Positions 15,587 to 58,169 of a stretch of DNA of 64,000 nucleotides are shown here, piece after piece. The notes beneath the pieces were generated by a model, which ran no database searches, had not been told where the DNA came from, and worked only from the letters and a program-made list of their open reading frames with translations. Each line of letters begins with the position of its first letter. Positions within the stretch are counted from its first letter, which is position 1. The translations under genes were made by a program, and so were the position numbers. Source of the stretch: Hemileia vastatrix (lineage: Eukaryota > Basidiomycota > Pucciniomycetes > Pucciniales > Zaghouaniaceae); NCBI GenBank assembly GCA_030280995.1, contig JASXTE010000008.1:5227001-5291000 (forward strand). Reading direction: 5' to 3'.

Positions 15587-17087
15587 TGTCAGGCTAGGGT
15601 CAAGTACAAGGACGTGAACTAGCTTGAATAGTCAGTTGTCTAGAAGATTTTAATGGTCCTATATGAATACTGTAGTTCTAATCCACTAAGTTGTAAAATA
15701 TAATCAAATATAAAGGTCTCAGTAATATAATTCTCACTATTCTTATATATGGCTTACAATCTTTATAGTTGGTAGAAAAATAGATTATATAAATTCAGAT
15801 ACTATTCAAAAGTCTTATAAAAGTACTAATTGATATTTATTGTAATTGGTTTGGTTATATTGGTTAAATTGTAATGATAAAGAATGAAGAAATACAACCC
15901 AAAAACCTCCTCCTTTTATACACACTGAGTTCACCAATGATTCCCTTGATGTACCACCCAATACACAGTTAATGACGCCTCTAAACAACTAATATACATG
16001 CCCATCAACATTCCTAGTAACCCATGACATAATTAGAAGAGTAACAACGGCAAAAATCCTGTAATAATAAGGAAAATCCATCAAAATTAAAGAAAAAGAC
16101 AAAAAGAGAGTATATGCGTATTAAACAATAATATTAAAGACTAAAGGAGACCTTTTAAGGTTAATAATAGCTTAATAATAAGGGGGATTTACTGTAGAAA
16201 TAATGGGGCTAATCCTGACATTATACTACGTGAAATTCCCATTCAAAAATAACCAAAATTGACTGAGAAACCACCCAAAAACATAAAAAGAGCGTGAGAT
16301 GTGGGGTAACTACATGCAGTTCTTGGAAGGAGCTTGCACGGGTAAATCCTTGAATAAAATTAGGCGAATTTAAGCGTGGTGATGAAATAAAGTGCCAAGA
16401 GTGAGGTTATTAATGAAATTAGTGCATATAAATAAGGTCAATGCATTATTAATTAAGCTAGGACACTAAATAAGCGCCTGTCGCCTATTTTAGTGTGTTT
16501 CCCCACAGTGGGCGTAGAATGTGGGGTAATTATAGTGTGAAAAAAGCTAACTTTGCTAAAAATGAAGCTATTCACACGGGAAAAAAGCAGGCAGTATGTG
16601 GCCAGTACACAGAAGCCATTTCTGGCATAAAAAACACCAAATTTGAAAAGTGTTATTTTTATGCATTTAAATAGCCAAATCAATAGTTCTAAATGAGCCT
16701 AATTGATCTGTCAAAGCGCAATTTTGATATTCTCAATTTTATAGCGCATATAGTCAACTTTTAAGTGAAATAAAGCGCATTTCTTGTTTTTTGCATAAAA
16801 CAATGAATATAACAGCTTTAAGTGTACTTAAAAATTATGTAGCCTTATACTTAAGGTTCTTAAGATTACCCTAACATATTCCAACTTAATATTAAGTACA
16901 TAAGACCTATAAAAGGTGGATATATGCGTGTATATAAGGTGTTATAATGGCATTTTTTGTGTATTATCATAATTTTACTTATGTATACTATTTGTGTACT
17001 CTTATTTATTATTCCCATGTATAGTTCATGTGTTTAACATAACTTATAATTACTTTTTACTCAGTCCTGGAGATATACAGGCTGACA
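15587..17087 (-). repeat. 3' LTR of element A
   Basis: Downstream LTR of the minus-strand element, preceded on that strand by a polypurine tract (17088-17098). A TATAAAAGG box lies on the minus strand at 15912-15920. The six terminal bases form the inverted repeat TGTCAG/CTGACA. The 76-residue frame inside each LTR copy is not supported as a gene. Confidence 0.9.
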
Positions 17088-17098
17088 CTCGCCCACCC
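17088..17098 (-). promoter_or_regulatory. Polypurine tract of element A
   Basis: On the minus strand GGGTGGGCGAG sits directly against the TGTCAG start of the 3' LTR. This is the expected position of the primer for plus-strand DNA synthesis. Confidence 0.65.
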
Positions 17099-17266
17099 AA
17101 AAAAACAATAAAAAAATGATAAGTTATACATTTTATTTTATTAATTTGTAATTTTCAGGTATTCAGAATAAATCTGTAGCATTAAAGATTCAACTTTAAA
17201 GAAATAAAACATAATAAAATATTATGAGTACTGGTTTTTTAACCCCTCAGCTGGTTGAACAGAATT

Positions 17267-19429
17267 TTATTTCTGTTTAAATTTTTTAAGAAGGGTGGAT
17301 AAATTAGAAATTTCTTTTTCAGGTATCCATTTATCAAATTCATTTGATTTCCCTTTAAATCTTAGTAAATACTCAGTTCCTTTTTCTTTAGTAAGGATTA
17401 TTTCCTTGAGTATTTTTTCAATCTCTGCTTTTTCCACAATTTCTTCAGGTTGCTTTTTAGGCCTTCTCCTTCTTTTTGGAAATAAGTCAGGATCATTTGC
17501 ATGGTAAGGTTTCTTTTTTAGACTGCCAGGAATATTATCCAAATCACAGCTTAGAAAGATTTTCATCTCATGGTCTTTGACCAATCCTAGTTCATTTGAA
17601 CCATGAGCAAATGCCATAGGATATGCTTTAATCAATCTCAAAATATCTTCTTCTTCAATTTTTGAGAGTTGAGGACTGAAAGAGGCCTTTTGGATTTCAT
17701 TTTCCAATTCAACCACTTCATTGGTGGTTCTTCCACCTTGCAGTTGTTCTTCTCTAGGAGAAATGGTATATACTGAATTTTCAGAACATATTTTGAATTT
17801 TCTTTTACCATTCACGCCTATGGTGAAACAACTGTTTGCAGGATCTAGTTTAATGCCAAATTTTGTCAATAAATCATTGCCAATAATAAACCAATCACTA
17901 CAATTATTATTATCCATTACTACAAATTCACAAACTGCTCTAACATATCCATTATTATATTTAAAGAATACAGCAGTTTTATATTTGCCAATTGGATTTA
18001 ATACTGAAACAAAACCTCTCCAGTTCTTTGTCTGAACAGATTCTAGTTTTTCCTGGTACTTACTATCAAGTTTCATTAATGTATTAATTGAAACTACACT
18101 ACCTGCAGCCCCAGTGTCAAGAATGGCATTCATTTCTTTTCCACATATGATAATAGGTGCTCTGATAGGTGTTATTTTGTAAGTATCATGAGATACATCT
18201 TTAATTATTTCAGCTTCCTCTATGGAAGTTAAAGATGTGTCTGTATGAGGTATAGCATCATTCAGGAACATTATATCCTTTTCTAATACAAATATCTCAT
18301 TTTCATCATCACTGTAAGATATGTTACTTTTGCAATCCTCACTAGATTCCACATTCTCATCTTCATGATTACTAGGTTCAGAATTCTGTGAGGTTTCAAT
18401 AACATTTATTCCCTTCTTACACGTGTGACCCTTAACCCAAGGTTCATTACATTTGTAACAAGTGTTATTTTCTTGTCTCTTAGGGACAAGGGGAGCTGAA
18501 GGTTTTTTCTTCTCCACTGATAACTTACTTGTAGTAGGTTTTACCACGTCAACACTTTGTCTGTAATTACTATACTTGGTTTCATACTTGTGGTTTAATA
18601 ATATCTCATTGCATATATTAATGAATCCAGAGGTGTCTCTGACAGTTTCAGTTCTAGCTACAATAATGTCTCTAACTGATATAGGCAGCTTGTATATTAT
18701 TTTTTCTTTCCACTCTTCATAATCCATTTTTGGATCCATAGCTTTCATGATTTTTATTAAATTCATTAAGAAGACCATGGGTTTATCTCCAGCATTTGGA
18801 TTATATCTGGCCCTTTCATACAGTCTTTGTTGAGTGATTCTAAATTTTGGGCCACCAAATTGCCTTTCAATTAGTGCCTTCCATTCATTCCAGGAGTAAT
18901 TAATTCCCTCACTCAATACAGATTCAAACCATAATAAGGCCACATCTGTAAATAAAGATATTAACTTTGAAGTAATTTCTTCATCAGGTAATTTATATGA
19001 AAATTTAAAGTTATCAATTCTTTGTATGAATTGTTGCCAATCAGATTTTGAATCCCCGTCAAAAGAAGGGTACTGATCTAACTTAGGCCAGTTCTTTTGG
19101 CTAGTTTTTGCTTCCCTAACCTGAGGAATATTGAGTAATTCACTCACTTTAGAAAGATGATCATTAATTTCATCTTTTACTGATTTTATATTCTCAGAGC
19201 CCATGACACTATGTTCATGTTCCATCATTGGTTTATCATCAGAGTGTTTCATAAAAACTGGTACTCTTTCTACATAAGAGATATTATCCTTTATTGTTTC
19301 AGTATTTTTCAAAATGTTAGCTACTTCAATTTCTACTCTTTGTAACCTATCCTTTATTACAGGTACATGAGTTAAAGTATCATTTACATTTGAAAAAGAC
19401 AATTTTACACGTCCCTCTATGGTAGCCAT
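17267..19429 (-). CDS. Gag-protease-chromodomain protein (RT/RNase H/integrase deleted)
   Basis: 720-residue open frame of element A. A Gag core begins near residue 110 (NWPKLDQYPSFDGD) and is followed by a CX2CX7HXC zinc knuckle at about 324 (18419-18460), an aspartic protease DTGA at about 438 (18107-18118), then directly a basic linker and a chromodomain ending the protein. In B elements the same flanks are separated by about 890 codons of RT, RNase H and integrase. The join near 17501-17516 falls at a Lys-Pro-Tyr that occurs at both deletion ends in B, so microhomology or template switching is likely. The frame is kept across the join. Upstream, the same frame continues to the ATG at 20494 but has stops at 19751-19753 and 19505-19507. 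The true polyprotein start is therefore probably 20494 and this ORF is its C-terminal part. The product would assemble particles and target chromatin but cannot copy or integrate DNA. Confidence 0.85.
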   Translation of the reverse strand: MATIEGRVKLSFSNVNDTLTHVPVIKDRLQRVEIEVANILKNTETIKDNISYVERVPVFMKHSDDKPMMEHEHSVMGSENIKSVKDEINDHLSKVSELLNIPQVREAKTSQKNWPKLDQYPSFDGDSKSDWQQFIQRIDNFKFSYKLPDEEITSKLISLFTDVALLWFESVLSEGINYSWNEWKALIERQFGGPKFRITQQRLYERARYNPNAGDKPMVFLMNLIKIMKAMDPKMDYEEWKEKIIYKLPISVRDIIVARTETVRDTSGFINICNEILLNHKYETKYSNYRQSVDVVKPTTSKLSVEKKKPSAPLVPKRQENNTCYKCNEPWVKGHTCKKGINVIETSQNSEPSNHEDENVESSEDCKSNISYSDDENEIFVLEKDIMFLNDAIPHTDTSLTSIEEAEIIKDVSHDTYKITPIRAPIIICGKEMNAILDTGAAGSVVSINTLMKLDSKYQEKLESVQTKNWRGFVSVLNPIGKYKTAVFFKYNNGYVRAVCEFVVMDNNNCSDWFIIGNDLLTKFGIKLDPANSCFTIGVNGKRKFKICSENSVYTISPREEQLQGGRTTNEVVELENEIQKASFSPQLSKIEEEDILRLIKAYPMAFAHGSNELGLVKDHEMKIFLSCDLDNIPGSLKKKPYHANDPDLFPKRRRRPKKQPEEIVEKAEIEKILKEIILTKEKGTEYLLRFKGKSNEFDKWIPEKEISNLSTLLKKFKQK

Positions 19430-20494
19430 AATATTCTGAGAGTGTTCTAATTTACTTTCTAAATTTCTAATCTCAGAGTTTAATCTTTTATTCTCATTGA
19501 TAAATTAATTATTTGAATTTTCAATAATTTTTAATTTATTGGCTGTGGTACTCAATGACTGTGTTAGTTGTAATAATACATTTTCTGTATTAATGTTTGA
19601 CTCTTTTGAGAACTCTTCCAATTTTTCAATTCTCAATAATAATTTACTTATTATTTTTGATTCCATTGTATTCTCTTTTAAAAAATATTCTATTTTTTCC
19701 GTGTCCAATTCAGAAGACTCATTATCAGGGTCAAGATTTAATTCATTTGATTACATTTTTATATTAATAGTATTTTCCTGGTGATCAATAAAACTATTTA
19801 CATTGTCCTCATGTAAAGACAAGTTTAACATATTCTGTTCAAATGAATAATCCTTTAAATCCTTATCAATAATATCCAATATTTCCTTATCAATCTCATT
19901 ACCTATAAGTAATTTATTTTCAGGTTGATATAATTGATCATAAGAAGTTGGATGACTTACCAAGGTCTTATCCCACTTCCCCTGCCTCTCCTTGCCTTTC
20001 CCCTGTAAGGGTGACTGCTGGAGCCCTGCTGTTGAGGATTGTTGTAGTTTTGGGCGTACCAATCCCATTTCCATTTGCTTACAGTAATTTTTTGGTCCTC
20101 CTCTTGGGCTGGAGGTGTTGCTATGGAATTGTTGGGTGCCACTGTTGGTGGTTGAGTCTTTATGTCCACTAGAGCTTGGTTGACTTCTATGAAACCTTGA
20201 GCTGCTCTCTTTTCCAGATTGTTGATCTGGTCCACTATATTGTTGACTCTTATTGTCAAGGTGTTCAGTAGGGTGGATAGGGAGTGAACTTGTTCTTGTA
20301 AAGTATTTTTTGTTTTCTTTATTGAAACCTGCTTTAAAAGCTTTTCCCTTTCCTCCAGAGACATTGACGGAGTGTTGTTGATTATGGGAGAGTCCTGGCC
20401 CTCCATTTGAATGTCCTGTAACAGGTCTTTCAGCTCTAGGTCTTAAGTTATAAGGTTTTACCTTATTACTTACAATGTCATTGTTGTCACACAT
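19430..20494 (-). pseudogene. N-terminal part of element A Gag polyprotein, two stops
   Basis: In the same frame as the 720-residue ORF, translation from the ATG at 20492-20494 stays open to 19751, then to 19505, then on into the Gag core. Two in-frame TAA codons interrupt it. The first third is Ser/Gln/basic-rich and overlaps the accessory frame. The part after 19900 is acidic, Leu/Lys/Glu-rich and likely coiled-coil, as in B elements. Retained frame through both candidate introns (20416-20473, 19903-19960) indicates that unspliced RNA encoded the polyprotein. Confidence 0.65.
19957..20494 (-). CDS. Spliced overlapping accessory protein of element A, 159 aa (predicted)
   Basis: Exon 1 is 20494-20474 (seven codons, MCDNNDI). 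The intron is 20473-20416 (58 nt, GTAAGT donor, TTACAG acceptor). Exon 2 is 20415-19957, open in the +1 frame relative to the Gag polyprotein. The product has a long predicted coiled coil (from LEEREKLLKQ to about residue 80), a Pro/Gln-rich linker, a WKWD-x5-Y motif, a basic ARRGRG tail and ends Pro-Trp. The same intron position, the opening Asp-[Ile/Val]-x-Met of exon 2, WKWD-x5-Y and terminal PW recur in the B/C family. Role unknown; basic tail and coiled coil would suit nucleic-acid binding or particle structure. Splicing is predicted from signals, not shown. Confidence 0.65.
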
Positions 20495-20818
20495 TTTTAC
20501 GTGGAATTTAAAGAATTGAAAGTTTAGATATGAAAACTTCAAAAAGGAGTTTTATCAGTATTTATCAATACCACTGAAGACAATTTTATTGCCTACTTAT
20601 TGGTATGAAGTGAATATTTAAGTGCCAAAAGTCAAATATGCTTTTATGTGGTCACTTGATTTAACTGGTCTACAATATGTAGCCGTGTTTTTATATTCAA
20701 AAGAAAACAACTGTCAGTATGATTCTTTCTAAATATTTAATGAATTTTACAAACCAATAAAAGAAAAGATTAAGAGTCCTGTTAAAAGAAAACAATTAAT
20801 CAGTTTAATTGGTTTATT

Positions 20819-21064
20819 ATCTGCAAAGATCACAAATTTAATTGGTCTATTGACAGACTCCCACTAAGAACAATTATATGTTAAATTAGTGGTAAAAATT
20901 TTATCTGCAAAGATCTCAAATTTAATTGGTCTATTGACAGACTCCCACTAAGAACAATTATATGTTAAATTAGTGGTAAAAATTTTATCTGCAAAGATCT
21001 CAAATTTAATTGGTCTATTGACAGACCCACTAATAACAATTATAAGTTAAATTAGTGGTAAAAT
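20819..21064 (-). repeat. Three tandem 84-bp repeats in the leader of element A
   Basis: Units starting with CTGCAAAGAT at 20821, 20905 and 20989 are spaced exactly 84 bp and nearly identical; the third lacks two bases near its middle. They lie between the 5' LTR and the start codon, where packaging, dimerisation or translation signals of an LTR retrotransposon would be. No equivalent is visible in the B leaders. Confidence 0.9.
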
Positions 21065-21231
21065 TGTTGATTCAATATCACAATTTTATAATATAACAGG
21101 GCTTCTTTTTCTGAAATCACTATATAAGTGACCCCAACCTGTTGTAATTATCCAAATATTTCTATAGGGATATTATTTACGTGCACCTTCTTTTGAAAAT
21201 TTCACTTACAGGATTATAACAGAATTCTTGA

Positions 21232-21244
21232 GGAAAGGTCCCCA
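21232..21244 (-). promoter_or_regulatory. Primer-binding site of element A
   Basis: On the minus strand TGGGGACCTTTCC begins two bases inside the 5' LTR. The same 13-mer occupies the same position in B2 and B3, with one or two changes in B1 and C. It would pair with the 3' end of a tRNA ending GGTCCCCA; the tRNA was not identified. Confidence 0.75.
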
Positions 21245-21246
21245 AT

Positions 21247-22748
21247 TGTCAGGCTAGGGTCAAGTACAAGGACGTGAACTAGCTTGAATAGTCAGTTGTC
21301 TAGAAGATTTTAATGGTCCTATATGAATACTGTAGTTCTAATCCACTAAGTTGTAAAATATAATCAAATATAAAGGTCTCAGTAATATAATTCTCACTAT
21401 TCTTATATATGGCTTACAATATTTATAGTTGGTAGAAAAATAGATTATATAAATTCAGATACTATTCAAAAGTCTTATAAAAGTACTAATTGATATGTAT
21501 TGTAATTGGTTTGGTTATATTGGTTAAATTGTAATGATAAAGAATGAAGAAATACAACCCAAAAAACTCCTCCTTTTATACACACTGAGTTCCCCAATGA
21601 TTCCCTTGATGTACCACCCAATACACAGTTAATGACGCCTCTAAACAACTAATAGACATGCCCATCAACATTCCTAGTAACCCATGACATAATTAGAAGA
21701 GTAACAACGGCAAAAATCCTGTAATAATAAGGGAAATCCATCAAAATTAAAGAAAAAGACAAAAAGAGAGTATATGCGTATTAAACAATAATATTAAAGA
21801 CTAAAGGAGACCTTTTAAGGTTAATAATAGCTTAATAATAAGGGGGATTTACTGTAGAAATAATGGGGCTAATCCTGACATTATACTACGTGAAATTCCC
21901 ATTCAAAAATAACCAAAATTGACTGAGAAACCACCCAAAAACTTAAAAAAGAGCGTGAGATGTGGGGTAACTACATGCAGTTCTTGGCAGGCGCTTGCAC
22001 GGGTAAATCCTTGACTAAAATTAGGCGAATTTAAGCGTGGTGATGAAATAAAGTGCCAAGAGTGAGGTTATTAATGAAATTAGTGCATATAAATAAGGTC
22101 AATGCATTATTAATTAAGCTAGGACACTAAATAAGCGCCTGTCGCCTATTTTAGTGTGTTTCCCCACAGTGGGCGTAGAATGTGGGGTAATTATAGTGTG
22201 AAAAAAGCTAACTTTGCTAAAAATGAAGCTATTCACACGGGAAAAAAGCAGGCAGTATGTGGCCAGTACACAGAAGCCATTTCTGGCATAAAAAACACCA
22301 AATTTGAAAAGTGTTATTTTTATGCATTTAAATAGCCAAATCAATAGTTCTAAATGAGCCCAATTGATCTGTCAAAGCGCAATTTTGATATTCTCAATTT
22401 TATAGCGCATATAGTCAACTTTTAAGTGAAATAAAGCGCATTTCTTGTTTTTTGCATAAAACAATGAATATAACAGCTTTAAGTGTACTTAAAAATTATG
22501 TAGCCTTATACTTAAGGTTCTTAAGATTACCCTAACATATTCCAACTTAATATTAAGTACATAAGACCTATAAAAGGTGGATATATGCGTGTATATAAGG
22601 TGTTATAATGGCATTTTTTGTGTATTATCATAATTTTACTTATGTATACTATTTGTGTACTCTTATTTATTATTCCCATGTATAGTTCATGTGTTTAACA
22701 TAACTTATAATTACTTTTTACTCAGTCCTGGAGATATACAGGCTGACA
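21247..22748 (-). repeat. 5' LTR of element A
   Basis: Upstream LTR on the minus strand, with TATAAAAGG at 21572-21580 as likely core promoter. The outer part (22544-22748) and the flank to 23220 are repeated inverted at the right end of the window. Confidence 0.9.
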
Positions 22749-25574: not shown

Positions 25575-26717
25575 TGTCAGCCAGGCTATTCCAGGAGTCC
25601 AGTAAATGATATATAAATTATAAAACTTTAAAGAGTGGGTAAGACTTGTATTTAATGAATATAACTTAATATTTTATTGCATAATGAAATTATATAAGAA
25701 TTTTATTATATACAAGTGTTACATTAAATTTATTGGTTATATATATTTTTATATATACAATTAAATTGAGCATAATATAATATATTCTACAAATAATGGC
25801 GCATTTTTATGTATTTAATAATTATAAATTTATATTTAATTAATTAAAAAACATATATTATAATTACAAGTGTAAATTTGATTTATAATATATTTAAATT
25901 AATTACTTAAATTTACATATTAAATAATACCTCTCATATGATACTAAACAATAATTAAGGACGCTTCTTTTGACCCTTAATTGTGTTAGAAAAAACAAAT
26001 AAATTAATTTGGACTAAATTGAGATTAATTGCTTGTTTTGTTGCATCAAATTATTTTTTGTTTCACTTAAAATATCCTTTAATCAGAATGTACCATCTGT
26101 TGGGAATTATATTTCTCATAGTTCCTATGTTTCCAATCTTGTTTAGTTATTCACTATTGTCACTTACTGATTTGGGAATTAATGGCGGGGAAATTGGATT
26201 CTTAATTGGGCTTTTAATTATTTGTTTCATGTTTTTCTCTATATTGTTATGTTTCATTTACTCTTTTGATATGTTTGTTTTATTCCATTCTAATCATTGT
26301 ATTTAAAAATATAGTAGCGCTTCAGAGGACCCATTGCCTATAAAAGGGCCTTGGATAATCCCCTGTAGCCTTATCACTTATTACACACTCAACAATTTAA
26401 AGATAAATTTATTACGCTTATTATTATTTTTATTAGTATTAGATTCTAATTAAAAATTCTAAATAACAATTTGAAGGTTGCCTTAAGTCTGATAGTAATT
26501 ATATTGTTTGCCGCGCAGAAACTCCTACTTAAATAATATTAATATTAATAAAACCAATTTTGTTGTCACCTCTCAAATCACTCGTCGTTGCTTTCTCTCA
26601 AATAAATCAAATAATCTCAATTGTTTTTATTTCTTTTATTTCTAAACTACTATCTCCTTCTTGTCCTCCTCTCTTTTCTTCCCTCTTATCTTATCTCTTC
26701 TAGACGACTGACCGACA
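25575..26717 (+). repeat. 5' LTR of B1
   Basis: Starts TGTCAGCCAGGCTATTCC and ends GACCGACA. TATAAAAGG at 26339-26347 is the probable core promoter, conserved in all B and C LTRs. A 107-codon hydrophobic frame in U3 (25983-26306) was considered and not accepted as a gene. Confidence 0.95.
26339..26347 (+). promoter_or_regulatory. TATA box of the B1 LTR
   Basis: TATAAAAGG within an almost invariant block (from GCGCTTCAGAGGACCC to CCTGTAGCC). The same box occurs at 45396-45404 in B2, at 56423-56431 in B3, and on the minus strand at 42526-42534 in C. Confidence 0.65.
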
Positions 26718-26895: not shown

Positions 26896-26951
26896 GTAAG
26901 TTCACCTTTGCGCCTCTCACTCATATTACTATATTTTTATTGCAATAACAG
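26896..26951 (+). other. Candidate 56-nt leader intron
   Basis: GTAAGTTCACC donor and AATAACAG acceptor, 56 nt apart, in the 5' untranslated leader; conserved in B2, B3 and C. The size matches the coding-region introns. The branch site is weak (ATTACTAT), so this is tentative. Confidence 0.35.
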
Positions 26952-27417: not shown

Positions 27418-28099
27418 ATGTCCAACAATTTGGCAGAAAAAATGGATAACATGCAAGTGGATGAGATAGAAATTGACTATGATGCTGACACTGTAAGTTC
27501 TTCTAAAGTTGGTCATAAAAAATCTTATACTAACACAAAAAATTCACATACTGCAGGATGTGGAAATGACAGGAAATGCAAACAAACCAAACCCCCTTCC
27601 ACCAGTACCACAGAAGGAAGTAAAGCCTCTAGTGCCTCAAGAAGGTCTTCCAAAAGGCTTCAAAATAAAAAAGCTTCCTCTGCCACAACAAATCAGCAAC
27701 CTATCCAGTCATATAAAAGAGTTGAAGACAGAAAATATGACGTACAAAGCAAAGGTAGACACATTGTGGGATCAGGTCCAAGAACTCAGGAACCAGATTC
27801 AGGCCCAGGCCCCTCCTCAATTGCCTCCCAATCAGCTTCAATTTCAGGCTCAACCTTCACAGCCACCCAGCTCAACCATCCAAAATCCAAATACTATGGA
27901 AGTAGAGAAATGGAAATGGGATTATCTAATGAGTCACTACCAACAGAATGTGCAACACCCTCCTCATCATCAGCCTGGCCCATCCAGAACACCCAATTTC
28001 CATCCACCTCCTCATCCCTACCAACAAAGCAGGAGAAAGAAGGCCCAAGCACAATCCCAAACCCAGTCCCAGGGGAAGTTTCCTCCTCTGCCATGGTAA
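27418..28099 (+). CDS. Spliced overlapping accessory protein of B1, 205 aa (predicted)
   Basis: Exon 1 is 27418-27492 (25 codons shared with Gag-Pol). The intron is 27493-27556 (64 nt: GTAAGT donor, TACTAACA branch site, CTGCAG acceptor). Exon 2 is 27557-28099 in the +1 frame. The product begins with an acidic stretch (IEIDYDADT), has a coiled coil at about 68-108 (ISNLSSHIKELKTEN onward), a Pro/Gln-rich linker at 109-135, WKWD-x5-Y at about 144-153, a basic RRKK and a PPLPW end. The frame is also intact in C and B3 and in distant family A, but has one stop in B2. Unspliced RNA reads through the intron as Gag-Pol, so splicing would switch products. No known family was recognised. Confidence 0.7.
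27493..27556 (+). other. Intron 1 of B1 (frame-switching)
   Basis: 64 nt, GTAAGT ... TACTAACA ... CTGCAG, phase 0. Length 3n+1 and free of stops in the Gag-Pol frame, so retained RNA encodes the polyprotein and spliced RNA enters the accessory frame. Equivalents: 46531-46594 (B2), 57563-57626 (B3), 41334-41397 minus (C, GTGAGT donor), 20416-20473 minus (A, 58 nt). Confidence 0.75.
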
Positions 28100-28153
28100 G
28101 TAATTTGGTTGATAGTCACTTGGGTATGTTTTCTAATAAATCTTCTTCTGCAG
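28096..28153 (+). other. Candidate intron 2 of B1 across the accessory stop codon
   Basis: 58 nt from GTAAGT to CTGCAG with a TTCTAATAA branch-like site. The donor overlaps the accessory stop (TGG TAA). After splicing, the next exon starts GTAAT, so the codon pair TGG TAA is recreated and the protein is unchanged. The same length and boundaries occur at 47116-47173 (B2), 58166-58223 (B3) and 19903-19960 minus (A). Confidence 0.5.
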
Positions 28154-31100
28154 GTAATATTATTGAACATGGTGAAAGAACAGTTAAACCTGTTAAAAGA
28201 CAGCTTCCTGTAACTAGTAGCCCTATTGATGTAATTAGCAAATTGTCATTTGATGAACCTTTACATTTAACTTCTACATCTTTAATTAATCCTTCTCTTG
28301 CAATTAAAAATGATTCTGTTCCCCCTGAAATCTATACCTTAATTGAAAAAACTTCTGAGGAAATATTGAAAGATACCCTTGATTTTAATATTGTGAAAGA
28401 CAAACATGTGAGAGATGTGTTAATCCATGAAAATGATAGATTAAATAATTTACACTTGCAATGTAAAGTGAGTTCTTCTGTACAAGATACAGCTTATTTA
28501 AAAATCAAAGAAACCTTGAATATTGTTCTTAGTCAACAAAAACAAATAAGAAGTGACCATAGAGCTATCTCAGATAGAAATATCAGTCTACATAAGACCT
28601 TGAGTGAATTGAAACCCCTTATTGAGGAAAATTATTCATTCAAAAATTAAATAAAATCTCTGCAAAATGAGTTTAAGAAGCTAAAAAATGATTTCCATGC
28701 ACTAAGTACCAAGCACTCAGTTTCTGAGGACAGAAATGTTCTATCTCTTGCAAAAGTAAATGACCAGATGTCTGAAATTCCAAGAATAAGAAACTATGTG
28801 TCTGACCTACAGGAAAAGTTCTCAACCTTATCCATAAATAATGAATTAAATGAGATTTCTGCAAATAAGCTGCATAAAAATAAAGGGAAAAAACCTGAAC
28901 AAAGTTCATCCTTTCTTCCTCATATTTCAACCATTAAACAAACTGACAATGAGTCTGTAAAATCTTTTGCTACTAGCAAAAAATCTTGTGATGGTCATGC
29001 ACCAGCTGTTTCTGTAAATAATGAAATTTCTGAACACCTGGCTAAACTTCAGGAATTATTACTAATGAATAATTCAAACCAAAAAGTGGACCATCCCAGT
29101 AGTCAGAAAAATTGGCCTAAGTTAGACCAATATCCTACCTTTGATGGTGATTCTTCCTCTGATTGGCAACACTTTATCCAAAGAATTGATAATTTAAAGA
29201 GATCTTATAAACTACCTGATGAGGAAATTGTTTCTAAGCTAATTTCTTTATTTTCCAATGTAGCCTTGATGTGGTATGAATCTGTCCTCTTAGATAACAA
29301 TCATTATACATGGAATGATTGGAAATCCTTGATTGAGAATCAGTTTGGTGGTTCAAAATTCAGGTTAGCTCAGCAAAGACTGTATGAGAATACTAGATAT
29401 GTATCCTCCTCTGTTGAAAAGCCCATTGTTTTTCTGATGAAAATAACTAAAATCCTTAGAGCAATTGATCCAAAGATGGATTATGATATTTGGAGAGATA
29501 AAATCTTGTATAAATTACCAAATTCTCTTAGGGATTTGATTGTTGCTAGAACTGAGCATGTAAGGGAAAATTCTTCTTTCATTAATATCTGTAATGAAGT
29601 ACTACTCAACCATAGATATGAACCAAAGAATTACCTTAGTAAATCTTATAATGATCAGAATAAACCTTCTATAAAGCTCCCAGAAAAATCTGGTAAACCC
29701 TCTGCCCCAGTTGCACCTAAAAAATATGCAACAAATACTTGTTATAAATGTAACAAACCGTGGCAGAAGGGTCATGTTTGTGACAAGAAAATTCATCTTG
29801 TTGAACAAAATGAAGACACTGATGAAGTTGAACTTGATGTCAATAATTCTTCCAGTGACTGTGAAAGTAATATCTCCTATGACAATGAATCTGTTAAAGA
29901 TGTTTTAATGTTGGAACATGATGTCCATTATTTAAATAATATATCTGAAGATTGTGTATTGAATTTATCTTCAGTAGAAAATGCTGAGATAATTAAAGAT
30001 ATTACTAACAATTCTATTCCCATATCCCCTTTAAAGGCACCTGTTATCATTAATGGTAAAAATGTTGATGTAGTTCTTGATTCTGGTGCTGGAGGAAGTG
30101 TAGTATCTGAAAAAGCTTTGGCTTCAGTGGATAATGAATATTTAAGTAAATTATTGCCTATAACTTCTGAAAAATGGAGAGGGTATGGTTCTACCTTATT
30201 TCCTATTGGCAAATACAAAACCTCTGTATTCTTCAAATATAATGGTGGTTTTGTCAGAGCTATTTGTGAGTTTGTTGTCATGAAAAATGATAATTTGAGC
30301 AATTGGTTTATTATGGGAAATGATATTTTAACCATGTTTGGTGTGAAACTAGACCCAGCAAATAATTGCTTTACCTTAGGAATGAATGGGAAAAGAAAAT
30401 TCAAAATTTCTTCTCCTAAACCTTCTTGGCATTTGTTGAAATCTTGTAACTCACTGACCCAATGTAAAGGTAGAACAACAACTGAAATGGATGATTTATT
30501 ACATGAAATAAATACCGCTTCTTTTGGTGATCATTTGACTAATGAACAAAAGGATTCTATTGTTGCCTCTATTACCTCTTTCCCTATGGCTTTTGCTCAT
30601 GGTTCTCATGTCTTGGGAATTGTTCAGGAAGAGATGAAAATTACCTTATCCTGTAATTTGAGTGATATTCCTCCTTCCCTTAAGAAAAAACCATATCCTG
30701 CTTCTCCATCAAAAAGAAAAGATATTGAAGATAATATTGAAACATTATTGAAAATGAATATCATTGAGAAAGTGAATGTCACCCCCAAATATTGTGTCAT
30801 CTCCCCAGTCTTGATTTCATATGAAAAAGATAAAGCTAGATTATGTGGAGATTACAGAGCTTTAAATACTTATACTGTTGATGATATTTATCCTTTATCC
30901 AGAATTAATTCAATACATGCTACCTTGCAAGGTGCAAAATTTATTAGTTGTCTGGATGGTAATAAAGGTTATCATCAAGTTCCAGTTGAGAAAAATTCTC
31001 AGAATTTTTTGCTTATTGCTACTCATATGGGAATATATAAGTATGTTAGGATGCCATTTGGCCCTAAAAATGCTCCTTCAGTTTTCCAGAAAGTCATGGA

Positions 31101-33607
31101 TAACACTTTCCATCAAGAAATTATTGAAGGTTGGCTCATGGTTTATATTGATGATATTATTGTTTTTTCTAAAACTTTTGATGAACATATGATTCACTTA
31201 AATAGAGTTTTCCAAAAAATGGATGAAATCAATATGACCTTATCTTTAAAAAAGTGTAAATTTGGTTTTCAATCTTTGAAAGTCCTTGGCCATGTTGTGT
31301 CAGGCTTACAAATTTGTGTAGACCATAATAAAGTTGCTGCCATTCAAAATGTGAAAGCACCAACTTCTGTAAGAGAAATCCAAAGTTTTTTGGGTATGTG
31401 TGGCTATTATAGACAATATATTAAAAATTATCAGGTCATAGCCTTGCCTCTTACAAAACTGACCAGAAAAGATGTTGCTTTTCTCTGGAATAATGACTGT
31501 CAGAAAGCTTTTAATACATTGAAAAGTTGCTTAATGACAGCCCCTATATTGGCTCTTCCAGATTTTAACAAGCCATTTGTACTTTATACAGATGCTAGCT
31601 TTATTGGTCTGGGTGCTGCCCTTCACCAAAAGCAAATTATTAATGATAAATCCTCAGAGGTTGTAATTTGTTATATTTCAAGAACCTTAAGAAATAGTGA
31701 ATTGAAATATGGTGCCACTCAATTGGAGTGCTTAGCAGTTGTTTGGGCTCTTGAGAAACTTCATTACTACTTGGATGACCAAAAATTTGAGTTGGTAACT
31801 GACTGTAGTGCTGTAAAATCTCTCTTAAACCTCAAAACACCTAACAGACATATGTTCAGGTGGCAACTTGCTGTTCAGGAATACAGAGGAAGGATGACTA
31901 TTATCCATAGAGCTGGAAATGTTCACTCTAATGTTGATATGCTCTCCAGATTGCCTCTGCCAAATAATGACTCCAATCCTGCTTATGTACCTGAAGATGA
32001 TACTGTTTATATACATGGTATATTTATAGTTGATATGGAAGAAGAGTTATTACAGTTAATACTGGATTCATATGATAAAGATTCTGACTTAAATAAATTA
32101 GTTACTATTTTGAATGATCCTAAGAATGCTTCAATTCAAGCATTAATAAAAACTCTTCCTGCAAAGTACCAAAATGCTTTAAATAAAGGAAAGTTTTCTA
32201 TTGAAGATGGTTATATATATTATAGAAGGAAGCTTACCAATGTAATTGTTATTCCTCCTTCAATGAAAGAAACTATCCTCAAACTTTGTCATGATGACAT
32301 ATTAGCTGGACATTTTGATCTTGAAAAAACATTGATTAGAATCAAAAACACTGCATGGTGGGCTAATATGTCTGAAGACACAAAATTATATGTTGAATCT
32401 TGTGATTCCTGCCAAAAATATAAAAGGTTAACAGGTAAGAGAGCAGGGTTATTACAACATATTGAAGCACCTAATGCTCCCTGGCAAATCATTAATATGG
32501 ATTTTGTCACTGGTCTTCCTGTTGCAGGTAAAGACAGCTTTAACTCTTGTTGGGTAATAGTTGATAGATTCACAAAAATGTGCAAATTTATTCCAACCCA
32601 CAAAGATGTATCCACCAAGGAATTAGCTTTCTTATGGTGGTCTTACATGTTTAATATTATTGGTTTTCCAAAAGCCATTATCTCTGATAGGGATCCAAAA
32701 TTCACTTCTGAGTTTTGGACCTCTTTGATGGATATTTGTGGCTGTGAGTTGAAATTGTCTACAGCTCACCATCCTCAGACTGATGGTCTAGCTGAAAGAA
32801 TGATTCAAACTCTGGAAGATATGATTAGAAGGTATTGTGCCTTTGGTTTAGAATATAAAGACAATGACAGATTTACTCATGATTGGGTCACTCTTTTGAC
32901 TGGTCTTGAATTTGCATATAATAGCACTGTTCATTCTGTCACTGAGAAAAAGCCTTTTGAGCTTTGGTTAGGTTATGTCCCAAACACTCCTGCTCAGATT
33001 CTCAATAATAAATTACCTAAGTTGGAACTACACCCTGGTGTAAAATCTTTTATGCAAATGCAACAGCTATGCAGAAAACATGCTCAGAGTTGTATTGATA
33101 AAGCATTTGAATATGAAAAGAAAAGATGGGATAAATCCCATAAAGAATACACATTTAACAAGGGTGATGAAGTGTTGATCTCTACTGTCCATTTCAATTT
33201 ACAAGGTAACCACAAATTAAAAGATCCTTTTGTAGGACCATTTGTTGTTAAAAGAATGGTTGGTGATAATGCAGTAGAAGTTGTATTGTATTCTCCATAT
33301 GATAGAAAACATCCTGTCTTTCCCATTTCTTTACTTAAACCTTATACTTCCAACAGTGACTTATTTCCAAAGAGGAGAGGAAGACCTAAGAAGAACCCTC
33401 AGGAAGTCACAGAAACAGCAGAAATTGATAAAATTCTCAATGATAGAATTATCACTTCTGAAAGAGGTACTGAATATTTATTGAGATATAAGAACAAATC
33501 ATCTGAACATGATGCATGGATACCTGGCAAAGAAATTTCAAATCTGCCTGCTCTGTTGAAAAAATACAAAAAGAAAAAATCTTAGCATTTTTTTTTATTG
33601 TTTTTTT

Positions 33608-33619
33608 AGAGTGAGGGAG
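33608..33619 (+). promoter_or_regulatory. Polypurine tract of B1
   Basis: AGAGTGAGGGAG immediately upstream of the 3' LTR. Confidence 0.8.
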
Positions 33620-35910
33620 TGTCAGCCAGGCTATTCCAGGAGTCCAGTAAATGATATATAAATTATAAAACTTTAAAGAGTGGGTAAGACTTGTATTTAA
33701 TGAATATAACTTAATATTTTATTGCATAATGAAATTATATAAGAATTTTATTATATACAAGTGTTACATTAAATTTATTGGTTATATATATTTTTATATA
33801 TACAATTAAATTGAGCATAATATAATATATTCTACAAATAATGGCGCATTTTTATGTATTTAATAATTATAAATTTATATTTAATTAATTAAAAAACATA
33901 TATTATAATTACAAGTGTAAATTTGATTTATAATATATTTAAATTAATTACTTAAATTTATATATTAAATAATACCTCTCATATGATACTAAACAATAAT
34001 TAAGGACGCTTCTTTTGACCCTTAATTGTGTTAGAAAAAACAAATAAATTAATTTGGACTAAATTGAGATTAATTGCTTGTTTTGTTGCGTCAAATTATT
34101 TTTTGTTTCACTTAAAATATCCTTTAATCAGAATGTACCATCTGTTGGGAATTATATTTCTCATAGTTCCTATGTTTCCAATCTTGTTTAGTTATTCACT
34201 ATTGTCACTTACTGATTTGGGAATTAATGGCGGGGAAATTGGATTCTTAATTGGGCTTTTAATTATTTGTTTCATGTTTTTCTCTATATTGTTATGTTTC
34301 ATTTACTCTTTTGATATGTTTGTTTTATTCCATTCTAATCATTGTATTTAAAAATATAGTAGCGCTTCAGAGGACCCATTGCCTATAAAAGGGCCTTGGA
34401 TAATCCCCTGTAGCCTTATCACTTATTACACACTCAACAATTTAAAGATAAATTTATTACGCTTATTATTATTTTTATTAGTATTAGATTCTAATTAAAA
34501 ATTCTAAATAACAATTTAAAGGTTGCCTTAATTCTGATAGTAATTATATTGTTTGCCGCGCAGAAACTCCTACTTAAATAATATTAATATTAATAAAACC
34601 AATTTTGTTGTCACCTCTCAAATCACTCGTCGTTGCTTTCTCTCAAATAAATCAAATAATCTCAATTGTTTTTATTTCTTTTATTTCTAAACTACTATCT
34701 CTGTCGGTCAGTTGTCTAGAAGAGATAAGATAAGAGGGAAGAAAAGAGAGGAGGACAAGAAGGAGATAGTAGTTTAGAAATAAGAGAAATAAAAACAATT
34801 GAGATTATTTGATTTATTTGAGAGAAAGCAACGACGAGTGATTTGAGAGGTGACAACAAAATTGGTTTTATTAATATTAATATTATTTAAGTAAGAGTTT
34901 CTGCGCGGCAAACAAGATAATTACTATCAGACTTAAGGCAACCTTTAAATTGTTATTTAGAATTTTTAATTAGAATCTAATACTAATAAAAATAATAATA
35001 AGCGTAATGAATTTATCTTTAAATTGTTGAGTGTGTAATAAGTGATAAGGCTACAGGGGATTATCCAAGGCCCTTTTATAGGCAATGGGTCCTCTGAAGC
35101 GCTACTATATTTGTAAATACAATGATTAGAATGGAATAAAACAAACATATCAAAAGAGTAAATGAAACATAACAATATAGAGAAAAACATGAAACAAATA
35201 ATTAAAAGCCCAATTAAGAATCCAATTTCCCCGCCATTAATTCCCAAATCAGTAAGTGACAATAGTGAATAACTAAACAAGATTGGAAACATAGGAACTA
35301 TGAGAAATATAATTCCCAACAGATGGTACATTCTGATTAAAGGATATTTTAAGTGAAACAAAAAATAATTTGACGCAACAAAACAAGCAATTAATCTCAA
35401 TTTAGTCCAAATTAATTTATTTGTTTTTTCTAACACAATTATGGGTCAAAAGAAGCGTCCTTAATTATTGTTTAGTATCATATGAGAGGTATTATTTAAT
35501 ATATAAATTTAAGTAATTAATTTAAATATATTATAAATCAAATTTACACTTGTAATTATAATATATGTTTTTTAATTAATTAAATATAAATTTATAATTA
35601 TTAAATACATAAAAATGCGCCATTATTTGTAGAATATATTATATTATGCTCAATTTAATTGTATATATAAAAATATATATAACCAATAAATTTAATGTAA
35701 CACTTGTATATAATAAAATTCTTATATAATTTCATTATGCAATAAAATATTAAGTTATATTCATTAAATACAAGTCTTACCCACTCTTTAAAGTTTTATA
35801 ATTTATATATCATTTACTGGACTCCTGGAATAGCCTGGCTGACAATCTCCTTCTTGTCCTCCTCTCTTTTCTTCCCTCTTATCTTATCTCTTCTAGACGA
35901 CTGACTGACA
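33620..35910 (+). repeat. 3' LTR of B1, interrupted
   Basis: 33620-34701 and 35850-35910 together equal the 1143-bp 5' LTR. The gap is an inverted solo LTR plus its 5-bp target copy. The LTR ends GACTGACA where the 5' LTR has GACCGACA. Confidence 0.95.
34702..35844 (-). mobile_element. Inverted solo LTR of the B family
   Basis: A complete 1143-bp LTR in minus orientation, flanked by ATCTC (34697-34701, 35845-35849), with no internal sequence. It is nearly identical to B1's LTR. Formed by insertion of a full element followed by LTR-LTR recombination. Together with the preceding LTR it makes a very large inverted repeat. Confidence 0.93.
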
Positions 35911-38900: not shown

Positions 38901-41472
38901 ATCTTTAATTATCTCAGCATTTTCTACTGAAGATAAATCCAATACACATTCTTCAGATATATTATTTAAATAATGGACATCCTGTTCCAACATAAAACAT
39001 CTTTAACAGATTCATTTTCATAGGAGATATTATTTTCACAGTCACTAGAAGAATTATTGACATCAAGTTCAACTTCATCAGTGTCTTCATTTTGTTCAAA
39101 AAGATGAATTTTCATGTCACAAACATGACCCTTCTGCCACGGTTTGTTACATTTATAACAAGTATTTGTTGCATATTTTTTAGGTGCAACTGGGGCAGAG
39201 GGTTTACCAGATTTTTCTGGGAGCTTTGTAGAAGGTTTATTCTGATCATTATAGGATTTACCAAGGTAATTCTTTGGTTCATATCTATGGTTGAGTAGTA
39301 CCTCATTACAGATATTAATGAAAGAAGAATTTTCCCTTACATGCTCAGTTCTAGCCACAATCAAATCTCTAAGAGAATTTGGTAATTTATACAAGATTTT
39401 ATCTCTCCAAATATCATAATCCATCTTTGGATCAATTGCTCTTAGGATTTTTGTCACTTTCATAAGAAAAACAATGGGCTTTTCAACAGAGGAGGATACA
39501 TATCTAGTATTCTCATACAGTCTATGCTGAGCTAACCTGAATTTTGAACCACCAAACTGATTCTCAATCAAGGATTTCCAATCATTCCATGTATAATGAT
39601 TGTTATCTAAAAGAACAGATTCATACTACATCAAGGCTACATTGAAAAATAAAGAAATTAGCTTAGAAACAATTTCCTCATCAGGTAGTTTATAAGATCT
39701 ATTTAAATTATCAATTCTTTGGATAAAGTGTTGCCAATCAGAGGAAGAATCACCATCAAAGGTAGGATATTGGTCTAACTTAGGCCAATTTTTCTGACTA
39801 CTGGGATGGTCCACTTTTTGGTTTGAATTATTCAACATTAACAATTCCTGAAGTATAGCCAGGTGTTCAGAAATTTCATTATTTACAGAAACAGCTGGTG
39901 CATGACCATCACATGATTTTTTCCTAGTAGCAAAATATTTTACAGACTCATTGTCAGTTTTTTTAATGGTTGAAATATGAGGAAGAAAGGAGGAACTTTT
40001 TTCAGGCTCTTTTACTTTATTTTTATGCAGCTTATTGACAGCATTCTCATTCATTCCATTATTGATGGTTAAGGTTGAAAATTTTTCCTGCAGGTCAGAC
40101 AAATAGTTGGAATTTCAGACATCTGGTCATTTACTTTTGCAAGAGATAGAACATTTCTATCCTAAGAAACTGTGTGTTTGGCACTTAGTGCATGGAAATC
40201 ATTCTTTAGCTTTTTAAACTCATTGTGTAGAGATTTTATTTCATTTTTTAATGAATAATTTTCTTCAATAAGGGGTTTCAATTCACTCAAGGTCTTATGT
40301 AAATTGATATTTCTATCTGAGATAGCTCTATGGTCACTCCTTATTTGTTTTTGTTGACTAAGAACAATATTCAAGGTTTCTTTGATTTTAAAATAAGCTG
40401 TATCCTGTACAGAAGAACTGACTTTACATTGCAAGTGCAAATTATTTAATCTATCATTTTCATGGATTAACACATCTCTCAAATGTTTGTCTTTCACAAC
40501 ATTAAAATCAAGGGTATCTTTCAATATTTCTTCAGAAGTTTTCTCAATTAAGGTATAGACTTCAGGGGGAACAGAATCATTCTTAATTGCAAGAGAAGGA
40601 TTAATTAAAGAAGTAAAAGTTAAATGTAAAGGTTCATCAAATGACAATTTGCTAATTACATCAATAGGGCTACTAGTTACAGGAAGCTGTCTTTTAACAG
40701 GTTTAACTGTTCTTTCACCATGTTCAATAATATTACCTGTAGAAGAAGTCTTATTAGAAAACATACCCAAGTGACTATCAACCAAATTACTTACCATGGC
40801 AGAGGAGGAAACTTCCCCTGAGACTGGGTTTGGGATTGTGCTTGGGCCTTCTTTCTCCTGCCTTGTTGGTAGGGATGAGGAGGTGGATGGATATTGGGTG
40901 TTCTGGATGGGCCAGGCTGATGATGAGGAGGGTGTTGCACATTCTGTTGGTAGTGACTCATTAGATAATCCCATTTCCATTGCTCTACTTCCATAGTATT
41001 TGGATTTTGGATGGTTGAGCTGGGTGGCTGTGAAGGTTGAGCCTGAAACTGAGGCTGATTGGGAGGAAACTGAGGAGGGACCTGGGCCTGATTTAGGTTC
41101 CTGAGTTCCTGAACTTGATCCCACAAGGTTTCTACTTTTTCCTTGTATTTCATGCTTTCTGTCTTCAGCTCTTTTATATGAGTGGACAGGTTGCTGATTT
41201 GCTGGGGCAGAGGAAGCTTTTTTATTTTGAATCCTTTTGGAGGACCTTCTTGAGGTACTAGAGGCTTTACTTCCTTCTGTTGTGCTGGGGGAAGGGGGTT
41301 TGATTTGCTTACATTTCCTGTCATTTCCACATCCTGAATTATGTGAATTTTTCTTGTTAGCATAAGATTATTTATGTTTAACTTTAGAAGAACTCACAGT
41401 GTCAGCATCATAATCAATTTCAATTTCATCCACTTGCATGTTATCCATTTTTTCAGCCAAATTGTTGGACAT
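35916..41472 (-). pseudogene. Gag-Pol polyprotein of element C, main decayed part
   Basis: The polyprotein starts at the ATG complement at 41470-41472 and continues downward into 35916, then (across B1) 25574-24975. It is visible as separate frames: 40162-41124, 39626-40102, 38966-39571 (Gag core and zinc knuckle), 38034-38993 (protease DSGA), 37377-37871 (RT with YIED in place of YIDD) and 35916-37213 (RNase H and integrase). Stops or frameshifts separate them, including stops near 38019-38031 and 37887, a frameshift near 37380, and a stop inside intron 1. The change of the second RT aspartate to glutamate would itself impair catalysis. Confidence 0.93.
40791..41472 (-). CDS. Spliced overlapping accessory protein of element C (predicted)
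   Basis: Exon 1 41472-41398, intron 41397-41334 (64 nt, GTGAGT donor, GCTAACA branch site, TTCAG acceptor), exon 2 41333-40791. The frame is fully open to the PPLPW stop, although the polyprotein of the same copy is broken many times and has acquired a stop within this intron. Same coiled coil, WKWD-x5-Y (preceded by Gln instead of Lys) and RRKK tail as B1, with scattered substitutions. Confidence 0.6.
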
Positions 41473-46455: not shown

Positions 46456-47119
46456 ATGTCCAAGAATTTGGCAGAAAAAATGGATAACATGCAAGTGGAT
46501 GAAATAGAAATTGACTATGATGCTGACACTGTAAGTTCTTCTAAAGTTGGTCATAAAAAATCTTATACTAACACAAAGAATTCACATACTGCAGGATGTG
46601 GAAATGACAGGAAATGCAAACAAAACAAACCCCCTTCCTCCAGTACCACAGAAGGAAGTAAAGCCTCTAGTGCCTCAATAAGGTCTTCCAAAAGGCTTCA
46701 AAATAAAAAAGCTTCCTCTGCCACAACAAATCAGCAACCTATCCAGTCATATAAAAGAGTTGAATACAGAAAATATGACGTACAAAGCAAAGGTAGACAC
46801 ATTGTGGGATCAGGTCCAAGAACTCAGGAACCAGATTCAGGCCCAGGCCCCTCCTCAGTTGCCTCCCAATCAACCTTCACAGCCACCCAGCTCAACCATC
46901 CAAAATCCAAATACTATGGAAGTAGAGCAATGGAAATGGGATTATCTAATGAGTCACTACCAACAGAATGTGCAACACCCTCCTCATCATCAGCCTGGCC
47001 CATCCAGAACACCCAATATCCATCCACCTCCTCATCCCTACCAACAAGGCAGGAGAAAGAAGGCCCAAGCACAATCCCAAACCCAGTATCAGGGGAAGTT
47101 TCCTCCTCTGCCATGGTAA
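46456..47119 (+). pseudogene. Accessory overlapping frame of B2, one stop
   Basis: Exon 1 46456-46530, intron 46531-46594 with intact GTAAGT, TACTAAC and CTGCAG, exon 2 46595-47119. A GAA-to-TAA change at 46679-46681 stops it at about codon 53. The rest, including WKWD-x5-Y and PPLPW, is intact, and an 18-bp deletion removes six residues without shifting frame. Confidence 0.65.
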
Positions 47120-57487: not shown

Positions 57488-58169
57488 ATGTCCAACAATT
57501 TGGCTGACAAAATGGATAACATGCAAGTGGATGAAATTGAAATTGACTATGATGCTGACACTGTAAGTTCTTCTAAAGTTGGACATAAAAAATCTTATGC
57601 TAACACAAAGAATTCACATACTGCAGGATGTGGAAATGACAGGAAATGTAAACAAACCAAACCCCCTTCCCCCAGTACCACAGAAGGAAGTAAAGCCTCT
57701 AGTGCCTCAAGAAGGTCTTCCAAAAGGCTTCAAAATAAAAAAGCTTCCTCTGCCACAACAAATCAGAAACCTATCCAGTCATATAAAAGAGTTGAAGACA
57801 GAAAATATGACATACAAAGAAAAGGTAGACACCTTGTGGGATCAGGTTCAAGAACTCAGGAACCAGATTCAGGCCCAGGCCCCTCCTCAGTTGCCTCCCA
57901 ATCAGCCTCAGTTTCAGGCTCAACCTTCACAGCCACCCAGCTCAACCATCCAAAATCCAAATACTATGGAAGTAGAGCAATGGAAATGGGATTATCTAAT
58001 GAGTCACTACCAACAGAATGTGCAACACCCTCCTCATCATCAGCCTGGCCCATCCAGAACACCCAATATCCATCCACCTCCTCATCCCTACCAACAAGGC
58101 AGGAGAAAGAAGGCCCAAGCACAATCCCAAACCCAGTCTCAGGGGAAGTTTCCTCCTCTGCCATGGTAA
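57488..58169 (+). CDS. Spliced overlapping accessory protein of B3 (predicted)
   Basis: Exon 1 57488-57562, intron 57563-57626 (64 nt, GTAAGT, TGCTAACA, CTGCAG), exon 2 57627-58169; open to the PPLPW stop and 205 residues long. Compared with B1 it has only scattered substitutions, retaining the coiled coil, WKWD-x5-Y and RRKK. The Gag-Pol frame of the same copy is badly damaged downstream. Confidence 0.65.

Follow-up and report, generated by a model that had tools for sequence, protein, structure and literature searches.

Long terminal repeat (LTR) retrotransposons are usually described in terms of gag and pol only, and overlapping genes within them are easily missed. Spliced accessory genes of such elements are already known. 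The env gene of Rous sarcoma virus is expressed as a spliced product that borrows the gag start codon, and Rev of human immunodeficiency virus (HIV) is a small, basic protein that multimerises and acts on unspliced RNA; neither is known to lie in an overlapping frame behind a 64-nucleotide (nt) intron. According to the excerpt of its description cited here, Cer1, a Ty3/gypsy element of Caenorhabditis elegans, makes its CERV protein from a spliced RNA that shares the gag start and then enters another frame; CERV has a potential leucine zipper and a basic stretch (KRKK), shows no obvious homology outside nematodes, and is needed for export of the unspliced full-length Cer1 RNA (PMC10309623). Similarly excerpted accounts place a 104-nt intron within the one long Gag-Pol frame of the barley copia element BARE1, where splicing shifts the frame and removes Pol (PMC3735527), and assign Gag-Pol to the unspliced RNA of the Arabidopsis copia element EVD and an early-ending Gag to its spliced shGAG RNA (PMC8892269). 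Here we describe a different layout in a 64,000-nt stretch of the Hemileia vastatrix genome (assembly GCA_030280995.1, contig JASXTE010000008.1, forward-strand positions 5,227,001 to 5,291,000; hereafter the window), in which nested Ty3/gypsy chromoviruses carry a second gene behind a short intron, wholly inside the Gag-Pol frame and in the +1 frame relative to it.

The arrangement is seen in five copies, the related B1, B2, B3 and C and the diverged family A (Table 1). We consider it very probable that two proteins are encoded from one start codon, namely Gag-Pol when the RNA is unspliced and a small +1 protein when it is spliced. With both introns kept, frame 0 would run through a long N-terminal extension into Gag-Pol; with intron 1 removed, the same first 7 to 25 codons would continue in the +1 frame to give a basic protein of 159 to 205 amino acids (aa), and removal of intron 2 would rebuild the same Pro-Trp end. 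The two introns measure 64 and 58 nt in family B and 58 and 58 nt in family A, and neither the lengths nor their sums are multiples of three. Splicing therefore shifts the RNA away from the Gag-Pol frame. This locks the introns in place, as a copy that loses one cannot make Gag-Pol from the shared start. This division of products had been proposed in an earlier reading made from the sequence only; its splicing and its frames have held for family B, while we infer the splicing of family A and the translation of both proteins in the cell.

Table 1. Coordinates of the overlapping gene, its introns and the surrounding element parts in the window
Feature	Position	Strand	Remarks
B1 exon 1	27418..27492	+	Start codon and first 25 codons common to the Gag-Pol frame and the spliced product
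B1 intron 1	27493..27556	+	64 nt; GTAAGT/TACTAAC/CAG; stop-free in the Gag-Pol frame
B1 exon 2	27557..28099	+	+1 frame; 180 codons plus stop
B1 intron 2	28096..28153	+	58 nt; GTAAGT/CTAAT/CAG; begins in the last codon (TG/G TAA)
B1 frame 0 (Gag-Pol)	27418..28650	+	Runs through both introns; stop at aa 411
B1 remaining Gag-Pol frame	28768..33585	+	Gag region, weak protease match, reverse transcriptase (RT), RNase H, integrase, chromodomain
B1 5' LTR	25575..26717	+	99.63% identity with 33620-34701 over 1,082 nt
B1 3' LTR, without its last part	33620..34701	+	LTR comparison
B2 copy	46456..47118	+	Exon 1 46456-46530; intron 1 46531-46594; exon 2 from 46595; intron 2 47116-47173
B3 copy	57488..58169	+	Exon 1 57488-57562; intron 1 57563-57626; exon 2 57627-58169; intron 2 58166-58223
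C copy	40791..41472	-	Exon 1 41472-41398; intron 1 41397-41334; exon 2 41333-40791; intron 2 40794-40737
A copy	19957..20494	-	Exon 1 20494-20474 (7 codons); intron 1 20473-20416 (58 nt); exon 2 20415-19957 (152 codons)
A intron 2	19903..19960	-	58 nt; GTAAGT...TAG, then GTAATG
A Gag-protease reading frame	17267..19429	-	Extends into a chromodomain; without a match to RT, RNase H or integrase domains

Like Cer1 with its CERV, B1 would derive an extra protein from a spliced RNA that shares the gag start and then takes a different frame; unlike the CERV of the cited excerpt, the whole product lies here in the first 0.7 kb (27418-28099), within the Gag-Pol frame and behind one intron of 58 to 64 nt. 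A short intron of the BARE type, placed in the Gag-Pol frame and spliced in vivo, is present in family B, as judged from processed genomic copies rather than RNA, of which 17 are seen here in comparison with BARE1. Yet the spliced BARE1 RNA encodes Gag itself, with a stop three amino acids past its end in the account cited (PMC3735527), whereas the spliced RNA in the present elements does not encode Gag but a separate protein without the Gag core. EVD is similar in reserving unspliced RNA for Gag-Pol and spliced RNA for one product, and the part of its description cited mentions no overlapping frame (PMC8892269). As far as they are described in these excerpts, BARE1, EVD and Cer1 are thus without a complete second protein inside the Gag-Pol frame behind an intron of 58 to 64 nt. 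The titles and abstract openings of the open-licence literature searched contain no description of this arrangement, with Cer1 CERV as the nearest case. The layout is a clear example of introns locked by frame in a retroelement. Of this element about three thousand copies can be recognised, and its other frame contains a protein conserved in two families.

The evidence for splicing comes from fossils in the genome, which make the claim testable without RNA. Across the 791 contigs of the assembly (748 Mb), the exon 1-exon 2 junction was recovered at 17 places (12 exact, 3 with one mismatch and 2 with two) against none for a reversed control, and the unspliced exon 1/intron 1 junction at 2,961 places, a spliced fraction of about 0.6% given mismatch limits of 3 for the spliced and 2 for the unspliced count. 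Intron 2 is exactly absent from 8 of the 17 copies without intron 1 and kept in 9; it alone is absent from two (L023 and L061) of the 59 usable copies in a sample chosen by exon 2 similarity, and the nearest neighbours of both retain it. The two introns are therefore lost jointly (8/17 versus 2/59, Fisher P = 4.5e-5). A rearranged sixtieth copy (L049) was excluded from the intron counts, the tree and the polymorphism test. LTR sequence aligns upstream of all 17 spliced-junction copies, at 67-93% identity to the B3 LTR. A tree of 79 copies, from which one of the 17 (L075, which has lost its leader and the beginning of exon 1) was omitted, calls for 9 changes of state in intron 1 and 8 in intron 2, numbers that recombination could inflate. 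Since copies exist that precisely lack intron 1, intron 2 or both, both introns are spliced in family B: the processed copies, rather than RNA, show that its RNA was spliced at both, then reverse-transcribed and inserted. The splicing proposed in the sequence-only reading is thereby shown for this family, by 17 copies without exactly intron 1 and by these 8 and the 2 others without intron 2. Two pairs of spliced-junction copies (L079/L080 and L084/L085) look like tandem duplicates: the members of each lie on the same strand, some 8 kb from each other, and have identical or almost identical sequences. A candidate leader intron (26896-26951) was rejected, as the stretch is kept in 16 of the 17 processed copies, L075 having its whole leader deleted.

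The second line of evidence is the pattern of conservation, in which the +1 protein is the frame conserved between families A and B and the Gag-Pol frame over it is merely kept free of stops. The +1 products of the two families align from end to end (26% identity, BLASTP E = 2e-8), with a score of 94 against a maximum of 84 among 1,500 null pairs that preserve the frame-0 proteins, so that the two-family conservation noticed at the outset stands. By contrast, the frame-0 products over the same bases score 44 against a shuffled mean of 46 and are not conserved, while frame 0 farther downstream does align (E = 1e-42). This answers the initial caveat that the long frame, which reads MEMGL at the WKWD codons, might partly account for the constraint there; it is the accessory frame, rather than Gag-Pol, that is conserved over the overlap. 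When the exon 2 proteins are held constant, no more than 2 in 10,000 codon permutations leave frame 0 without a stop, a limit that applies to B1, B3, C and A individually. Stop-making codon junctions are absent from both families, although 7.3 would be expected in B3 and 6.9 in A, whereas the matching non-stop junctions, TA[CT] and TG[CGT], show no clear deficit (5 versus 4.2 and 4 versus 3.3 in B3; 3 versus 5.1 and 2 versus 2.5 in A).

Substitutions between the window copies, which as pairs share sequences and are not independent, agree with this. Between C and B1, changes in the overlap that are synonymous in the +1 frame number 19 against 10.7 expected (P = 0.002; P values of the substitution and variant tests are uncorrected for the number of tests), and those synonymous in frame 0 number 10 against 10.3; just downstream of the overlap the pattern reverses, with 11 frame-0-synonymous changes against 5.0 (P = 0.003). 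The +1-synonymous excess recurs between B3 and C (12 versus 7, P = 0.02) and between B1 and B3 (7 versus 3.5, P = 0.03) and is not significant between B1 and B2 (3 versus 1.9); the downstream frame-0 constraint recurs between B1 and B3 (P = 0.001) and is not significant for C-B3 or B1-B2. Polymorphism was studied in copies chosen by their exon 1/intron 1 junction, namely 20 of the first 22 unspliced-junction places listed together with three window copies, compared with B3. Of these 23, 22 were used; the one omitted (L103, 56% alike) is scored as a miss in the open-frame counts below. Variants shared among copies favour the +1-synonymous class in the first half of exon 2 (9 versus 4.3, P = 0.005) and the frame-0-synonymous class downstream of the overlap (16 versus 5.4, P < 0.0005). 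The same test on the larger sample chosen by exon 2 similarity was discarded, since that choice itself favours copies conserved in the +1 frame. Between C (41333-40791) and B3 (57627-58166) there are 26 differences in the first half of exon 2 and 0 in the second, which suggests recombination or template switching between copies.

The exon-intron layout first proposed for B1, B3 and C was recovered in full: the ATG and a 25-codon exon 1, the 64-nt intron and a 180-codon exon 2 in the +1 frame, for a product of 205 aa. An exon 2 open for 180 codons, proposed for all four B and C copies, is found in these three and is broken in B2, where a stop follows 28 codons and 18 nt are deleted, though the splice signals are kept. 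The same design was likewise confirmed in family A, with a 7-codon exon 1, a 58-nt intron and 152 aa from exon 2 giving 159 aa, and the intron ends and phase are common to both families. Intron 1 is, as claimed, free of stops in the Gag-Pol frame except in C, the copy with the donor GTGAGT. Only 11 donors on both strands of the 64 kb have strict branch and acceptor partners, and 8 of them are introns 1 and 2 of B1, B2, B3 and C. This concentration exceeds chance, although the four copies are related and the 8 introns not independent; the introns of family A are recovered only with a looser branch rule.

Intron 2 had escaped the sequence-only reading, which described a single intron. All five window copies have TG/GTAAGT at the exon 2 stop and AG/GTAA 58 nt later (the slash marking the splice site), so that the stop lies inside the intron, the following exon starts with GTAA, and the Pro-Trp-stop end is identical whether or not intron 2 is removed. 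Between A and B, 21 of its 58 positions agree, including the first six and the last two. A role of intron 2 in restoring the Gag-Pol frame was rejected on length and phase. At 28093-28099 the B copies have an overlapping ATGG TAA, which places a frame-0 ATG (in CCATGG context) on the exon 2 stop; family A has TTG at this point, so a stop-restart mechanism is not conserved.

In both families exon 2 opens with Asp-[Val/Ile]-x-Met, and in B1 it continues with a probable coiled coil, the WKWD helix (helices as placed in the B3 model), a basic tail rich in arginine and lysine and the Pro-Trp end. The exon 2 products are basic (isoelectric points 9.7 and 9.4). Structure models of B3 and A, the check proposed for the WKWD region, predict a long helix (residues 42-83 and 39-86, respectively) and a short WKWD helix, at low confidence, with the rest mostly without predicted structure. 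No Pfam family exceeds its cut-off for the +1 product; the basic leucine zipper family bZIP_1 reaches 23.7 bits against a cut-off of 27.6 over residues 45-81 only, and a coiled coil of this type is therefore not assigned. The profile search that had been called for was run against a protein collection with the product alone and as a four-row profile and gave no homologue, and scans of viral and prokaryote contigs gave no match. Of the 150 exon 2 products scored for each of the B and A types, 149 are stop-free; in each case these 150 are the best-scoring of about 18,000 first-look candidates. The A product is 100% identical in 136 of its best 150 scored genomic matches, which suggests a recent burst.

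As to function, the spliced product may, tentatively, act in the nucleus as a regulator that multimerises, binds RNA and promotes the export or packaging of the unspliced RNA, like HIV Rev or Cer1 CERV. The basic tail, the predicted helix and the dependence on splicing would fit such a role, which is a guess by analogy: RNA export is demonstrated for CERV in the cited excerpt (PMC10309623). The main alternative is a Gag cofactor. If the Rev/CERV-type role were true, the elements would have a feedback circuit of this type, run by a protein made only from spliced RNA and contained wholly within the Gag-Pol frame; neither intron could be lost, since removal of either breaks Gag-Pol, and the protein would be a candidate regulator of the choice of element RNA among translation, splicing and packaging.

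Several observations weigh against two proteins from one start. The Gag-Pol frame from the shared ATG is intact in none of the five window copies, with first frame-0 stops at aa 411 in B1, 271 in B2, 397 in B3, 35 in C and 248 in A. Taken alone, the lack of a stop in intron 1 in that frame is no great surprise (P of 0.21 for B1 and 0.24 for A on shuffling), and openness of the exon 2 frame given the frame-0 protein is just moderately unlikely in each family (P 0.03-0.20). Codon-junction bias is of several kinds, as TT junctions are low in B3 (2 versus 5.4) and high in A (8 versus 4.0). Over the whole of exon 2 the +1-synonymous excess in the junction-chosen sample is modest, both for shared variants (12 versus 7.6, P = 0.044) and for all variants (29 versus 22.0, P = 0.051), and the second half is without +1 constraint (shared variants 3 versus 3.2), so that the constraint there rests on the comparison of A with B. 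Conservation itself rests on two families, as no homologue of the +1 product was found outside this genome, and the structure models have mean pLDDT (predicted local distance difference test) values of only 56 and 60. Finally, the assembly search returned no spliced junction of family A, a weak negative since the unspliced junctions of A were uncounted; the conserved signals suggest that A is spliced as well.

The overlap belongs to the long N-terminal extension of Gag-Pol and precedes the conserved Gag core by several hundred codons. One could suppose that this extension is untranslated, Gag-Pol starting at an internal ATG and the frame-0 overlap being accidental. This would account for the stops that interrupt frame 0 after the shared ATG and before the Gag core in each of the five window copies (27418-28700, 46456-47300, 57488-58700, 41472-40000 and 20494-19429). 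We regard it as unlikely, because frame 0 avoids stops in both families, is under constraint downstream of the overlap, and is open in most other sampled copies: among the 20 B-type copies selected by nothing but their exon 1/intron 1 junction, 16 are stop-free through the first 413 codons, and among the 8 A-type copies selected by the +1 product, 7 are stop-free through 678 codons, the exception being the window copy. The stops in the window most simply reflect decay of those copies; an additional internal start of Gag-Pol is possible.

Splicing might instead serve just to switch off Gag-Pol, as a dosage device like those of BARE and EVD, with the +1 peptide as a functionless by-product. Knockout of pol by splicing of a short intron is known, from the account of BARE1 cited (PMC3735527), and removal of either intron takes the RNA out of frame 0. 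We give this only a slim chance, as the +1 product is conserved between families whose frame-0 products have no detectable similarity over those bases, is full length in 17 of the 20 junction-chosen copies and shows the first-half variant bias described above, though none in the second half. The product also stops short of the Gag core by hundreds of codons and has no match among Gag families, and, unlike in BARE, the spliced RNA cannot make that core from the shared start. It is very improbable that translation of the +1 protein starts mainly internally, at the Met conserved as the fourth codon of exon 2 in both families: a ribosome would first meet seven other ATGs in B1 and two in A, splicing does occur at the in-frame junction, and the intron ends and phase are those shared by the two families. 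The probability that the intron-less copies are DNA deletions is very small. A 5-nt direct repeat (GGTAA) does flank intron 2, where slippage could yield the same product, but the repeat at the ends of intron 1 is a single nucleotide, and yet exactly 64 nt are absent in 17 copies. In 1,340 nt there are 274 direct-repeat pairs of at least 5 nt spaced 20-150 nt apart, and the 59 usable copies of the exon 2 sample have no deletions of at least 20 nt other than the two of intron 2; these two have different intron-bearing nearest neighbours, and introns 1 and 2 are lost together.

The window consists of nested LTR elements with a C-terminal chromodomain, which are Ty3/gypsy chromoviruses, as the sequence-only reading had labelled them. 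In B1 the order is protease, RT, RNase H and integrase, followed by the C-terminal chromodomain; RT, RNase H, the integrase zinc domain, a Tf2-1-like SH3 domain and Chromo are above their cut-offs, and the integrase core (29.8 bits versus 32.6) and the aspartyl protease are below theirs. In A the protease (RVP) scores 21.0 against a cut-off of 20.7, and this element (15586-22748) has the spliced gene, Gag, protease and chromodomain without a match to RT, RNase H or integrase. A search with Gag-Pol returned 17 matches at no more than 35% identity, 16 with RT among their precomputed domains. Scans of Rfam and for tRNAs gave no match. LTRs flank the elements, with pair identities of 99.2% in A, 99.6% in B1, 98.7% in B2 and 96.6% in C, and 98.3% over 481 nt in B3, whose 3' LTR is truncated; at 96.6-99.6% identity, the insertions are therefore fairly young. 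By LTR coordinates, C contains B1 and a lone inverted LTR, and at 33617-35854 the truncated 3' LTR of B1 directly abuts an LTR in the opposite orientation, forming a rearranged junction.
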